Shown piece by piece: positions 30,576-59,454 of a stretch of DNA of 64,000 bases. Both the position numbers and the translations under genes were made by a program. The stretch is from Rhodococcus rhodochrous (GTDB lineage: Bacteria; Actinomycetota; Actinomycetes; Mycobacteriales; Mycobacteriaceae): NCBI RefSeq assembly GCF_900187265.1, contig NZ_LT906450.1, positions 2,843,444-2,907,443 of the forward strand, read 5' to 3'. Under the pieces are notes generated by a model. The model did not search any database, had not been told where the DNA came from, and saw nothing but the letters and a program-made list of their open reading frames with translations. Position 1 is the stretch's first letter. Each line of letters opens with the position of its first letter.

Positions 30576-30615
30576 CCTGATGCATCAGGCGCTGCGCGGC
30601 TGATGAGCTAGCCGC
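30576..30615. terminator. palindromic region between ppm1 and the pap operon
   Basis: Two symmetrical elements lie where the genes converge: a perfect 14-bp palindrome CCTGATGCATCAGG at 30576-30589 and a weak hairpin with arms GCGGCT (30596-30601) and AGCCGC (30610-30615). The second overlaps the end of the oxygenase gene. They probably end both transcripts, but the stems are short. Confidence 0.4.
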
Positions 30616-31603
30616 TGCGCGGCCACGGCCAGCGGGCGTCGAGTTCCTCCCCGAGCCCCAGGCCCGCGCACAGCCGGCGGATGGCGCTGCAGTCCTGCAC
30701 CACCGGCCGGCCCTCGGTCACGGCGATGGTGTCGGCGACCAGCTCGTCGCCGCCGGGGATGTTCTCGTGCGCGATGATCGCCGCCCAGGTGGAGGTGTCG
30801 GAGCCGGTGAACGCCGCGACCGCGGTGCCGAGCGCGTCGAGCAGCCGCACCCGATCGGTGTCGTCGAGTTCGGTGAGCACCGCGGTGAGCAGCCCACCGG
30901 CCAGCGAGGCGTGGCACAGCTCGTCGCGGCGGTGCACCGCAACCGTCGCGCGGTTGACCGGTTGCAGCTCCGGGTCGGTGGTGAGCAACGCCAGATAGGC
31001 GCTGATCGAGGTCTCCGCGACGGTGGTGAACGCCAGCTGCACCAGCGCCGCATCCCGCGGGGTCTCGGCGCGCGCGACCGCGGCGCGATGCTCCCGCACG
31101 GTCGGGCAGGGTGGCAGCACCGACTCCGGGAGCGCCCAGCCGCGGCGACGGCGGGTGAGCACGTTGGCCTGCTGGTGCATGAGGGTGTGGTACTGCTCGT
31201 CGACCATCGCCTGCAGCACCCCGGTGACCACCGTGTCGGACGGGCCGATGCCGAACGCGTCCTCGGTGATCAACGCGAAGCCGGGGTTGACGACGTGCTG
31301 TTCGATGTCGACGACGCTCTTGTTGTAGGCGATCCACGCCCAGGCCCGCAGCCGCGCCTGCCGTTGCTCGTCGAGCGCGAGATAACGCGGATGCTCGGCG
31401 AAGGGCAGCATCTGCTCGGGATAGTCGGCGCGGTCCGCCTCGAACAGCGCATCGAGATCGACCTCGGGTTTCTTCACGGCGGCGCGGCGCGGCCACGAGC
31501 GGGTCAGCCCGGCGATCACCGCGCTCTCCGCCGGATCGGACGGGTCGTATTGCGGGAGTTCCGGCGCGCGCAGCTGCGGGCCGGGGATGTCGGACTCGTT
31601 CAT
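30608..31603 (-). CDS. AurF/CmlI-type diiron arylamine N-oxygenase
   Basis: This 331-residue protein is in the AurF family of non-haem diiron enzymes, which oxidise arylamines to nitroso and nitro groups (AurF on p-aminobenzoate, CmlI in chloramphenicol synthesis). All seven expected iron ligands are visible: Glu101, Glu136 and His139 (DEQYH), Glu197 (AETSI), and His224, Glu228 and His231 (HRRDELCH). These sit within one residue of the AurF positions. It is the last gene of an operon that should make a 4-amino-phenylalanine precursor, and its start overlaps the dehydrogenase stop by 4 bp. The natural substrate is inferred to be an aminophenyl compound, free or carrier-bound. Confidence 0.85.
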   Translation of the reverse strand: MNESDIPGPQLRAPELPQYDPSDPAESAVIAGLTRSWPRRAAVKKPEVDLDALFEADRADYPEQMLPFAEHPRYLALDEQRQARLRAWAWIAYNKSVVDIEQHVVNPGFALITEDAFGIGPSDTVVTGVLQAMVDEQYHTLMHQQANVLTRRRRGWALPESVLPPCPTVREHRAAVARAETPRDAALVQLAFTTVAETSISAYLALLTTDPELQPVNRATVAVHRRDELCHASLAGGLLTAVLTELDDTDRVRLLDALGTAVAAFTGSDTSTWAAIIAHENIPGGDELVADTIAVTEGRPVVQDCSAIRRLCAGLGLGEELDARWPWPRSG

Positions 31604-58300: not shown

Positions 58301-59454
58301 TCCCGCTCACCCCGGCCGGCAAACTCGACCGCGCCGCGCTGCCCGCCCCGGACTTCACCGCCCCGGCCGGGGACTACCGGGCGCCGCGCACCGACCTCGA
58401 AAAGCTCGTCACCGACCTGTTCGCCGAGCATCTCGGCCTCGACCGGGTCGGCGTCGACGACGACTTCTTCGACCTCGGCGGCACCTCGCTGCTGGCGACC
58501 CGGTTGCTACCGGCGCTCGGGGAACGACTCGGGCGGCGCGTGCCGATCGCGTCGATCTTCACCCACCCCACCCCGGCAGACCTCGCCGCACACCTGAGCA
58601 GCGGCGACCCCGAGGCGGACAACGGCATCGACGAGGCGTTCCGGGTGCTCGTGCCGCTGCGCCCCGGTACCGGCACCGCACTGTTCTGCATCCATCCCGC
58701 CGCCGGGCTGGCCTGGCCGTACAGCACCCTCGCGCACCGCCTCGACGACGACCGGCCGGTCTACGGCCTGCAGTTGCCGGCGCTGTCCGGTGGTCCGCGG
58801 CACGACACCATCACCGCGCTGGCCCGCCACTACGTGCGGGAGATCCGCCGGGTGCAGCCGCACGGCCCGTATCACCTGCTGGGCTGGTCGCTCGGCGGGG
58901 TGGTCGCGCACGCCGTCGCCGTCGAACTGCGCCGCGCCGGGGAGATCGTCGACACCCTCGCCCTGCTCGACAGCCACCTCGTGGTCGGGGCGTCCCCGGC
59001 CGTCGGCACCCGCGACATGCTGCGCGATCTCGGTCTCCCTGTCGACGACGGCGAGCCGAGCTTCGAACACGCCGCCGCGGTGCTCGACGAGGCGTTCGGC
59101 GGCGGCACCGGATTGACCGCCGCCCACCTCGAACGGCTGCACGCCGGCTCGACCGACACCGCCCGCGCCGCGCGGCGGCACGAACCGGACACCTTCGACG
59201 GGGACGCGTTGTTCTTCACCGCGGCCCGCTCGGAGGCCCCGGTCCCGGCGGTGGCGGCCTGGCACAACGTGATCGCCGGCGAGATCCACCAGTACCGGCT
59301 CGACTGCGATCACCACGAGATGGTGAGCGCCCGGGCGGTGGAGACGATCGTCGCGGTGCTCTCGGCGCGGCTGACCGAGAGCGACGCGGCGCTGCGCCGG
59401 TGGGGACGGGTCGCGGTGCAGGTCGCCGGGCGTAACGGGGACCGCCGGAACTGA
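37399..59454 (+). CDS. six-module nonribosomal peptide synthetase with terminal thioesterase
   Basis: This is a single 7,351-residue protein. Domain order with rough residues: C1 13-430 (HHVALDG at 146), a half-condensation remnant 458-665, A1 668-1185, PCP1 (Ser1230); C2 1285-1720, A2 1735-2250, PCP2; C3 2349-2795, A3 2797-3314, PCP3; C4 3409-3855, A4 3867-4391, PCP4 with GGDSI; epimerase 4484-4960 ([15 protein letters not shown]); C5 4967-5420 of the type that follows epimerases ([10 protein letters not shown]); A5 5427-5934, PCP5; C6, A6, PCP6; thioesterase 7080-7334 (GWSLGG). Pocket residues read by eye give D-V-W-H-F-S-L-V-D for A2 (serine) and D-F-W-N-I-G-M-V-H for A4 (threonine). A1, A3, A5 and A6 share an unusual D-A-F-F start. 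The leading C domain suggests an acyl or aryl cap. Translation from 37399 follows a strong ribosome site; earlier in-frame starts are less likely. Confidence 0.93.

Follow-up and report, generated by a model that had tools for sequence, protein, structure and literature searches.

Does the operon that lies beside a large NRPS on the Rhodococcus rhodochrous chromosome provide that enzyme with an unusual aromatic residue? The original prediction, made for a stretch of 64,000 nucleotides (referred to here as the window), was that an operon encoding a PabA-PabB fusion, an AroQ mutase, a PapC-like dehydrogenase and an AurF-type N-oxygenase contributes a 4-amino- or 4-nitrophenyl unit to the peptide of a nearby 22-kb NRPS. 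The reading that we favor, with a probability of roughly 0.55, is that the operon supplies 4-amino- or 4-nitrophenylalanine, which would be built into the acylated hexapeptide of the neighboring NRPS, most likely at module 3.

A putative 4-aminophenylalanine operon with an N-oxygenase gene

The genes for a chorismate-mutase-type protein (CM), PabAB, PapC and AurF form a tightly coupled operon on the minus strand (30608-35071), and the predicted gene set was borne out by Pfam and by matches of all four enzymes to a plasmid cluster of Rhodococcus sp. H-CA8f. The CM gene (34691..35071, minus strand; Pfam CM_2, 4.6e-18) encodes a PapB-like protein, a putative 4-amino-4-deoxychorismate mutase. A gap of 8 bp separates it from the gene for the PabA-PabB fusion (32511..34682, minus strand), whose start we set at the GTG at 34682 and whose ORF ends at 32511; this gene overlaps papC (31600..32514, minus strand) by 4 bp, as papC does aurF (30608..31603, minus strand), so that the spacings calculated from the coordinates agree with the couplings of 4-8 bp described earlier. 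PabAB has the Pfam domains GATase, Anth_synt_I_N and Chorismate_bind and carries PIKGT, the lysine motif already pointed out. Its top PDB match is 8hx6, annotated as 4-amino-4-deoxychorismate synthase (1.2e-240), and it scores 379.7 bits against TIGR00553 (pabB), above the cut-off of 328.4. By these features PabAB is a predicted 4-amino-4-deoxychorismate (ADC) synthase and not an anthranilate synthase. The PabAB fusion has no diagnostic value by itself: G124, a genome without the operon, has one elsewhere (50%).

PapC, a candidate for the conversion of 4-amino-4-deoxyprephenate to 4-aminophenylpyruvate, has Pfam prephenate-dehydrogenase domains, with PDH_C scoring above and PDH_N below the cut-off. 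A dedicated mutase and dehydrogenase thus stand beside the synthase, in addition to the other prephenate dehydrogenase of the genome (G000:C1:318775). PapC is an extra copy, since two PDH_C proteins were found in 10 of 10 tested genomes with the operon's AurF and one in each of the three without it. That PapC might itself be TyrA was ruled out by the separate prephenate dehydrogenase and by the 1e-56 match to PapC of the H-CA8f plasmid.

The last gene encodes a member of the AurF/CmlI family of di-iron N-oxygenases (Pfam AurF, 5e-47; top PDB match 5hyg, 9.3e-68). Residues E101, E136, H139, E197, H224, E228 and H231, which we take to be the seven iron ligands, are invariant in 22 aligned sequences, the window's included; the family fold and all seven metal-ligand positions are found in the sequence, as had been claimed for the ligands. 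Because the protein scores 174.7 against the NCBIfam model for 4-aminobenzoate N-oxygenase, below the cut-off of 620 bits, it is not AurF itself, and in the tree it does not share a clade with 5hyg (CmlI) or the H-CA8f enzyme. The Pfam AurF family was dropped as a marker, as 93 of 121 genomes match it, and the window protein itself was the query for the orthologue counts below. The gene identities, couplings and ligand residues, like the domain order, codes and linkage described below, are read from the sequence. Assignment of the cassette as a predicted 4-aminophenylalanine pathway joined to a CmlI/AurF-type N-oxygenase is supported.

A six-module NRPS related to the humimycin-type enzymes

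The NRPS gene (37399..59454, plus strand) spans 22,056 bp and starts with the ATG at 37399, with 2,327 bp between this codon and the CM start, in keeping with the predicted distance of about 2.3 kb and the predicted size and six modules. Its domain order is Cst-C(partial)-A1, C-A2(Ser), C-A3, C-A4(Thr)-E, C-A5, C-A6-TE, all on the plus strand. The starter condensation domain (37399..38800) has 7c1k, 6n8e, 5du9 and 5ja1 as its best PDB matches. A siderophore reading, suggested by the EntF-like starter C, was set aside, three other starter C kinds outscoring EntF. The ten-letter codes are DAFFTAAIVK for A1 (39553..41067), DVWHFSLVDK (serine) for A2 (42730..44244), DAFFVAGIEK for A3 (45934..47448), the candidate 4-amino-Phe domain, DFWNIGMVHK (threonine) for A4 (49126..50640), which is followed by the E domain, DAFFAGAIMK for A5 (53791..55305) and DAFFLAAIMK for A6 (56971..58485). 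The column positions used to extract them are supported by the agreement of the serine and threonine codes with the textbook codes.

Between the operon and the NRPS lie rbpA (35331..35720, minus strand; Pfam RbpA, 1.9e-41), a syntenic anchor of the locus, and a gene for a putative secreted protein (36268..36855, minus strand; weak Rv1157c-type match, below cut-off) that is conserved in the genus locus; because of these two genes, the operon and the NRPS are not one transcript. The syntenic flank consists of lnt with a ppm1-like family-2 glycosyltransferase (27699..30565, plus strand) and an amidohydrolase gene (26554..28164, plus strand). The amidohydrolase ORF overlaps the long lnt ORF, and the real lnt start is probably later.

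The window enzyme shares with the humimycin NRPS (iupU of R. equi) a C-starter followed by a partial C, Ser as the second residue, an E domain after Thr, release by a TE and the rbpA locus, but module 4 and the first E are missing from it, and its codes at the X positions are different. Humimycin-type enzymes have seven modules with E after modules 3 and 5, whereas six modules and one E are found here, and by sequence the enzyme is classed as a relative of the humimycin-type NRPSs and not a member. What is new is that it shares its starter organization with them. The location at rbpA (and ppm1) is common to the window, Prescottella, R. maanshanensis and the copies in Rhodococcoides (g6).

Residue Glu331 of A3 tracks operon presence: all 16 NRPSs read that come with the operon (one of them partial) carry it, whereas none of the five operon-less relatives does. 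Since A1 and A3 of the humimycin-type enzymes lack it, it is not a general signature. None of the window codes resembles DASMQSAVCK, the putative code for 4-amino-Phe in the H-CA8f cluster.

Conservation and linkage of the operon and the NRPS

Of 18 genus genomes, the window genome included, 17 have an AurF orthologue, and the only one without it (G005) is 75% complete; with such conservation, chance is untenable as an explanation. In all 14 genus genomes with both genes on one contig, the AurF start lies 5,571-5,861 bp from the NRPS start, and in the remaining three that bear AurF the two are on separate contigs. Linkage of the operon and the NRPS at a chromosomal locus is therefore supported within the genus. 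All genus genomes read retain the gene order of the operon and the ligand residues.

Beyond the genus, the NRPSs next to the operon are dissimilar. Within a stretch of up to 10 kb per side, an NRPS frame was present at 57 of 69 named pap-bearing loci; five of the 12 loci without one are from Gordonia and three are at contig ends. By comparison, positions no more than 10 kb away from a condensation domain make up about 5% of a chromosome, as estimated from two genomes. All four Rhodococcoides genomes read have the order rbpA-CM-PabAB-NRPS 3' end at a humimycin-type NRPS, with AurF elsewhere. In three g24 genomes (G145, G306 and G278), the humimycin-type NRPS does not lie at the operon, which has a different NRPS as its neighbor. 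In G012, aurF is split over two frames and the NRPS frame is intact. Among 401 family genomes, 95 have both AurF and the NRPS start, 15 AurF only, 13 the NRPS start only and 278 neither, counts that are uncorrected for descent and hence confounded by kinship. The NRPS-start search was loose: two of the 13 NRPS-only genomes, both of genus g23, have other layouts when read.

Genomes with the NRPS and no operon, and the reverse, which the original prediction had named as evidence against itself, do occur if its wording is taken literally. Six-module NRPSs without the operon were read in G124, G037 and G066, and G041 and G062 probably have them too, judged by ORF length and A3. G124 has no AurF match, one PDH_C protein, and A1, A2, A4 and A6 codes identical to the window's. 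We read these operon-less enzymes as the result of loss or as an older state. Conversely, ten Gordonia-genus genomes carry the operon's AurF without this NRPS, and the three that were read contain the complete operon. Because the Gordonia AurFs nest in the rhodococcal clade beside G168 (support 100/100), the lone operon looks derived, and we read the Gordonia operons as probable horizontal transfers into that genus. In G. lacunae, a GNAT gene follows aurF. Given the exceptions in both directions, no firm claim is made that the peptide contains an aminophenyl-derived unit; what the comparison supports is the operon's tie to the NRPS, conserved in the genus.

Discussion

In the pathway that we propose, PabAB would convert chorismate to 4-amino-4-deoxychorismate, the PapB-type mutase would rearrange it, and PapC would oxidize and decarboxylate the product to 4-aminophenylpyruvate, from which a housekeeping transaminase could form 4-amino-L-phenylalanine. 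The CmlI/AurF-type enzyme would oxidize the aryl amine towards nitro, prior to or following assembly. The product would be an acylated hexapeptide, X1-Ser-X3-D-(allo)Thr-X5-X6, released by the thioesterase, module 3 being the most likely point of entry for the aminophenyl-derived unit and module 1 a possible further one. We infer all of these reactions, the AurF substrate, the use by the NRPS, the module and the acyl group. Comparable arrangements exist. The pristinamycin papABC genes supply 4-aminophenylalanine to an NRPS, the amine being methylated and not oxidized. Obafluorin biosynthesis in Pseudomonas combines PapABC-type supply, an AurF-type oxygenase and an NRPS, and the starter C of ObiF1 is a close PDB match (6n8e) to that of the window; its product, however, is a beta-lactone made via a threonine transaldolase and not a six-module lipopeptide.

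One alternative is that the operon is self-contained and makes free 4-nitro- (or nitroso- or hydroxylamino-) phenylalanine or an acyl derivative, with the NRPS not its user. The four operon genes in G399 (Gordonia genus) have no NRPS within about 42 kb, nor has the operon of G058 a multidomain NRPS within that distance; different NRPS neighbors are tolerated, rbpA separates the operon from the NRPS in the window, and G. lacunae has the GNAT gene after aurF. Against this, the lone state looks derived in the AurF tree, a placement near an NRPS has a chance of about 5% each time, and CM-PabAB are kept at the humimycin-type NRPS in the four Rhodococcoides genomes despite AurF being elsewhere. We consider this alternative unlikely. 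Still less probable, in our judgment, is that the NRPS makes an ordinary lipopeptide of proteinogenic residues and that the adjacency reflects inherited hitch-hiking at a conserved locus: operon-less six-module NRPSs with similar codes exist and co-occurrence is confounded by descent, but neither the gene order of the operon nor the ligand residues vary among the genus genomes read, and the linkage is seen again with other NRPSs and in Rhodococcoides, where the operon is split.

The operon might instead be the chromosomal pathway for corynecins, N-acyl p-nitrophenylserinols. PMC10819586 and PMC9557007 report these from Rhodococcus sp. H-CA8f, contrary to the earlier statement that no rhodococcal product of this type is described. 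The H-CA8f plasmid NZ_CP023721.1 carries a chloramphenicol-type cluster with the same four enzyme families, and antiSMASH-based similarity to 'corynecin' is given as 100% for the chromosomes of five R. erythropolis strains (PMC10819586) and 40% for a Prescottella chromosome (PMC10972888). The plasmid cluster is nonetheless different from the window's. Identities are 56% for PabAB, 49% over 89 residues for CM, 45% for PapC and 39% for AurF, and the gene order differs. It also has a single AMP-binding synthetase, a DAHP synthase and CmrA, which the window operon, of only four genes, lacks, and no single-module CmlP was seen among the neighbors read; moreover, it is plasmid-borne, whereas the locus in the window sits on the chromosome and is conserved throughout the genus. 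No match to a CmlA-type hydroxylase was found in 22 of 23 genomes tested, the window genome among them, the one hit (G381) being within a separate second pap cluster. The AurF clade differs as well. Because the plasmid cluster was found and the window genome lacks CmlA, we regard the corynecin pathway as very improbable here. The 100% similarity in R. erythropolis does not square with the plasmid cluster, and it may be that the corynecin cluster as published is the pap locus of the chromosome.

The reading that the operon feeds the NRPS extends to the humimycins. According to PMC12024397 and PMC5550956, the published humimycins (A and B) have Tyr/Phe residues and were produced on the basis of prediction. 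In Prescottella, the pap operon is next to an NRPS whose layout fits humimycin A, and CM-PabAB are kept at the humimycin-type NRPS in Rhodococcoides; for these reasons, 4-amino- or 4-nitro-Phe is probably built into the humimycin-type peptide family where Tyr/Phe was predicted. More tentatively, a natural rhodococcal humimycin family (MurJ-targeting lipopeptides) might have been predicted without its own amino-acid supply genes and have 4-amino- or 4-nitro-Phe in place of Tyr1 and D-Tyr3 of the synthetic humimycins, and the window NRPS, which is the six-module counterpart in Rhodococcus s.s. of the related humimycin-type NRPS found at this rbpA locus, could represent a six-residue branch with the unit at residue 3.

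A 4-aminophenylalanine and N-oxygenase cassette is kept beside NRPS loci in several rhodococcal genera, and one of these loci fits humimycin A, an antibiotic scaffold designed by predicting residues from adenylation codes. If the cassette feeds the synthetase, the published humimycin structures would lack a key residue. If this is true, a defined mass and isotope signature would make it possible to find the real compounds, and an orphan peptide that is conserved in an industrial genus would gain a chemical handle.

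The pap operon and the NRPS of the window

The arrangement in the original prediction, a pap operon beside a six-module NRPS, was confirmed, with the four genes, their tight coupling, the PIKGT motif in the PabAB sequence and all seven AurF ligand positions present. The operon lies on the minus strand and comprises CM (34691-35071), a PabAB fusion (32511-34682), PapC (31600-32514) and AurF (30608-31603). The solved structure nearest to PabAB is 8hx6, a 702-aa 4-amino-4-deoxychorismate synthase (1.2e-240). In the PDB search, AurF matched 5hyg at 9.3e-68 and AurF proper (2jcd/3chh) at about 4e-43; the 5hyg entry is titled 'uncharacterized protein', and we take it to be CmlI. 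The seven ligand positions showed no variation across 22 aligned sequences, including that of the window and those of L098 and L113, two loci that the AurF tree places in the CmlI-type group. The case for reading the operon as a 4-aminophenylalanine pathway is strong. Between the operon and the NRPS are rbpA and a secreted-protein-like gene, and the whole 5.27-Mb genome is a single contig.

The NRPS (37399-59454, plus strand) has the layout Cst-C(partial)-A, C-A, C-A, C-A-E, C-A, C-A-TE. Alignment gave the adenylation domain codes DAFFTAAIVK (A1), DVWHFSLVDK (A2), DAFFVAGIEK (A3), DFWNIGMVHK (A4), DAFFAGAIMK (A5) and DAFFLAAIMK (A6), with code positions that we assume; the A2 code is presumably that of Ser and the A4 code that of Thr. 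The starter C domain is nearest to 7c1k and its relatives, which we take to be lipo-starter domains, and next to ObiF1, CDA and EntF; the peptide would likely carry an acyl cap. Directly downstream of the NRPS and convergent with it is a gene pair for a ParD-like antitoxin and a zeta-toxin-type kinase (59488-60521, minus strand). Two consecutive TldD/PmbA-type protease genes occupy 22182-25837 (minus strand). Positions 1-16000 may be a mobile element, given their lower GC content (64-68% vs 71-75% in the NRPS half) and an ORF at 12957-15209 that matches HTH and, weakly, rve (integrase).

Conservation and distribution

An AurF orthologue was found in 17 of the 18 genomes of the genus, the window's own counted, the sole miss (G005) being 75% complete, and the NRPS N-terminus was found at ≥60% identity in the same 17. 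The starts of the two genes are 5,571-5,861 bp apart in the 14 genomes that have both on one contig; in the remaining three they lie on separate contigs. The loci read have the same CM-PabAB-PapC-AurF order, and rbpA and ppm1 adjoin it where the stretch extends that far. The aurF of G012 (L122, 4013-4995) is broken across two frames, which may be a real loss or a sequencing error; the NRPS frame and the remaining pap genes look intact. The in-match stops of AurF in five other genomes fall in the last few codons. Named AurF relatives, drawn from the best 80 of 195 loci, include those of R. gordoniae (90%), R. coprophilus, R. ruber, R. aetherivorans, R. zopfii and Prescottella equi, and further from Rhodococcoides, R. 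opacus and Gordonia.

Across the family, AurF matched at ≤1e-15 in 110 of 401 genomes from 8 of 31 genera (weakly in G408), and the NRPS N-terminus, at 1e-145, in 108. Both were present in 95 genomes, AurF alone in 15, the NRPS alone in 13 and neither in 278, a co-occurrence with a Fisher p of 1e-60 that ignores shared descent and assumes both samples to be the same 401 genomes. The 15 AurF-only genomes are ten of Gordonia, three of Rhodococcoides, G065 and G408. The entire operon was present in the three Gordonia genomes read, and the AurF tree nests the Gordonia sequences within the rhodococcal group, paired with G168 (100/100), which points to acquisition by transfer. In Gordonia lacunae (L199, 5280-11464), a stand-alone CM-PabAB-PapC-AurF set has a GNAT acetyltransferase gene after it and a resolvase gene on its upstream side. 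Seven Streptomyces loci (L195, L196, L200, L202, L210, L213 and L214) pair an AurF of the window group (46-50%) with PabAB and have no CM or PapC match in the stretch read, which suggests an aminobenzoate rather than an aminophenylalanine substrate there.

Comparison with chloramphenicol-type clusters

The original prediction held that no rhodococcal product of this type had been described; this needs correcting, since corynecins are attributed to Rhodococcus sp. H-CA8f in excerpts of PMC10819586 and PMC9557007. A plasmid cluster of this strain encodes AurF, an AMP-binding synthetase, an MBL-fold protein (CmlA-like), PabAB, PapC, CM, a DAHP synthase and the CmrA efflux protein, and from this gene content would make corynecin. 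An R. qingshengii plasmid carries the same gene set, and a second has an equally close AurF; the plasmids of R. qingshengii TG-1 and H-CA8f (L257, L258) share a chloramphenicol-type cluster adjoining a chloramphenicol efflux gene. The H-CA8f proteins are 56% (PabAB), 49% (CM), 45% (PapC) and 39% (AurF) identical to those of the window.

The window locus nevertheless differs from the H-CA8f plasmid set. Of 23 genomes tested, 22 lacked CmlA_N, that of the window among them, and the sole match (G381) adjoins a second pap set. In the AurF tree, in which some rows have long branches, the rhodococcal and Gordonia enzymes form one group (21 rows, support 92/98), and 5hyg, the H-CA8f enzyme and the second copy of G381 form another (100/98). 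Counting against this distinction is the antiSMASH 'corynecin' similarity of 100% given for five R. erythropolis chromosomes in an excerpt of PMC10819586; a value of 40% is given for one Prescottella in an excerpt of PMC10972888. Either the reference entry is itself the chromosomal pap locus or the similarity has another cause; no CmlA was found in the genomes tested from the genus of R. opacus and R. qingshengii, which included G181 (R. qingshengii). Two genomes of this genus (G299 and G278; L113 and L119) hold a second, lone CmlI-like oxygenase (45%), with no pap matches within 9 kb.

Relation of the operon to the peptide

The prediction that the peptide contains a 4-amino- or 4-nitrophenyl unit stood in part, favored by linkage and by the split loci described below, and opposed by six-module NRPSs that lack the operon and by the operon AurF of Gordonia without this NRPS. 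Both PapC and AurF matched in 69 named loci, of which 57 have an NRPS frame in the stretch read; the other 12 include five of Gordonia and three at contig ends. Antrihabitans G058 has the operon, and no multidomain NRPS was found in a range of about 42 kb from it. Chance explains the adjacency poorly, because the operon has an NRPS close by in four or more dissimilar settings, which may not all be independent events (six-module; humimycin-type; nine-A-domain in G278; multi-gene Ser-rich in G306 and G381), whereas the share of the chromosome no more than 10 kb from a condensation domain is 5.5% and 5.2% in two genomes.

G124, G037 and G066 have a six-module NRPS and lack the operon, and G041 (7,380 aa) and G062 (7,363 aa) were counted with them on frame length and an A3-like domain only. 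G037 and G041 are among the AurF misses listed in the family search, a list that was not complete; G062 and G066 simply do not figure in the 110 AurF matches, which makes their lack of the operon less certain. G124 has one PDH_C protein and, elsewhere in its genome, a PabAB fusion at 50%; its A1, A2, A4 and A6 codes equal those of the window, so A1 and A6 need no 4-amino-Phe. A3 is the exception: it has Glu331 in every operon-bearing NRPS that could be read, 16 in total (15 in full and G015 in part, with G007 and G013 unreadable), and the position is Ala or Val in all five operon-less NRPSs. Only 10 of 313 A domains scanned carry Glu331, nine of them these A3 domains. The residue is suggestive only, because the humimycin-type A1 and A3 of Prescottella carry Val331 and because the H-CA8f synthetase has a different putative code for 4-amino-Phe, DASMQSAVCK, unlike the codes of the window. 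Overall, the operon probably serves the peptide.

The humimycin connection is new relative to the original prediction and adds weight to it. According to an excerpt of PMC12024397, humimycin A is acyl-Tyr-Ser-D-Tyr-Phe-D-Thr-Val-Val. Excerpts of PMC5550956 assign it to iupU of R. equi, in a cluster with an amidohydrolase, an N-acyltransferase, MbtH and at times a dehydrogenase, and state that humimycins were made on the basis of predicted structures, further modification of the natural product being possible. Prescottella G055 and G209 have, next to the pap operon, an NRPS with its domains in the order A, A(Ser), A-E, A, A(Thr)-E, A, A-TE, which is precisely the humimycin A layout, and with near-identical codes for residues 1 and 3 (DALFVGAVVK, DALF[A/V]GAVVK); G209 has no other NRPS with E domains after modules 3 and 5, as judged by condensation-match spacing. 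By its architecture this would be the iupU-type humimycin synthetase. Neither chorismate nor aminobenzoate is mentioned in the main text of PMC5550956, a survey of the genus, and in the open-licence PMC literature the titles, abstract openings and excerpts examined connect no 4-aminophenylalanine operon with these NRPSs.

The seven-module layout was read in Rhodococcoides, Prescottella, Antrihabitans, R. maanshanensis and kin, and the R. opacus genus; it was not among the layouts read in the genus of the window, which has the six-module form in its place. The seven-module form adjoins the operon in Prescottella, the four genomes read of the R. maanshanensis group and Antrihabitans G032, and is unlinked to it in G145, G306 and G278 (the R. 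opacus genus) and in G058. In 24 of the best 80 named loci (23 Rhodococcus/Rhodococcoides, one Gordonia), the stretch read has PapC-AurF but matches neither CM nor PabAB; some of these loci are cut short upstream. A PabAB fusion was found in all six genomes searched, five Rhodococcoides of this split type and G022, whose operon is whole. In G381 the fusion and the NRPS start are on different contigs. In G071, G340, G197 and G303, CM and PabAB have rbpA on one side and the humimycin-type NRPS on the other, 0.7-0.8 kb from the 3' end of the latter and far from aurF; in G071 and G303, PapC was observed adjoining AurF. The seven-module layout was read completely in G071; start matches indicate it in G340 (8,936 aa) and G197 (8,921 aa), together with frame lengths, and in G303, where the frame is broken. 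The committed enzymes thus stay at the NRPS though aurF is elsewhere, and this is the strongest argument for assigning the aminophenyl unit to the humimycin-type peptide family.
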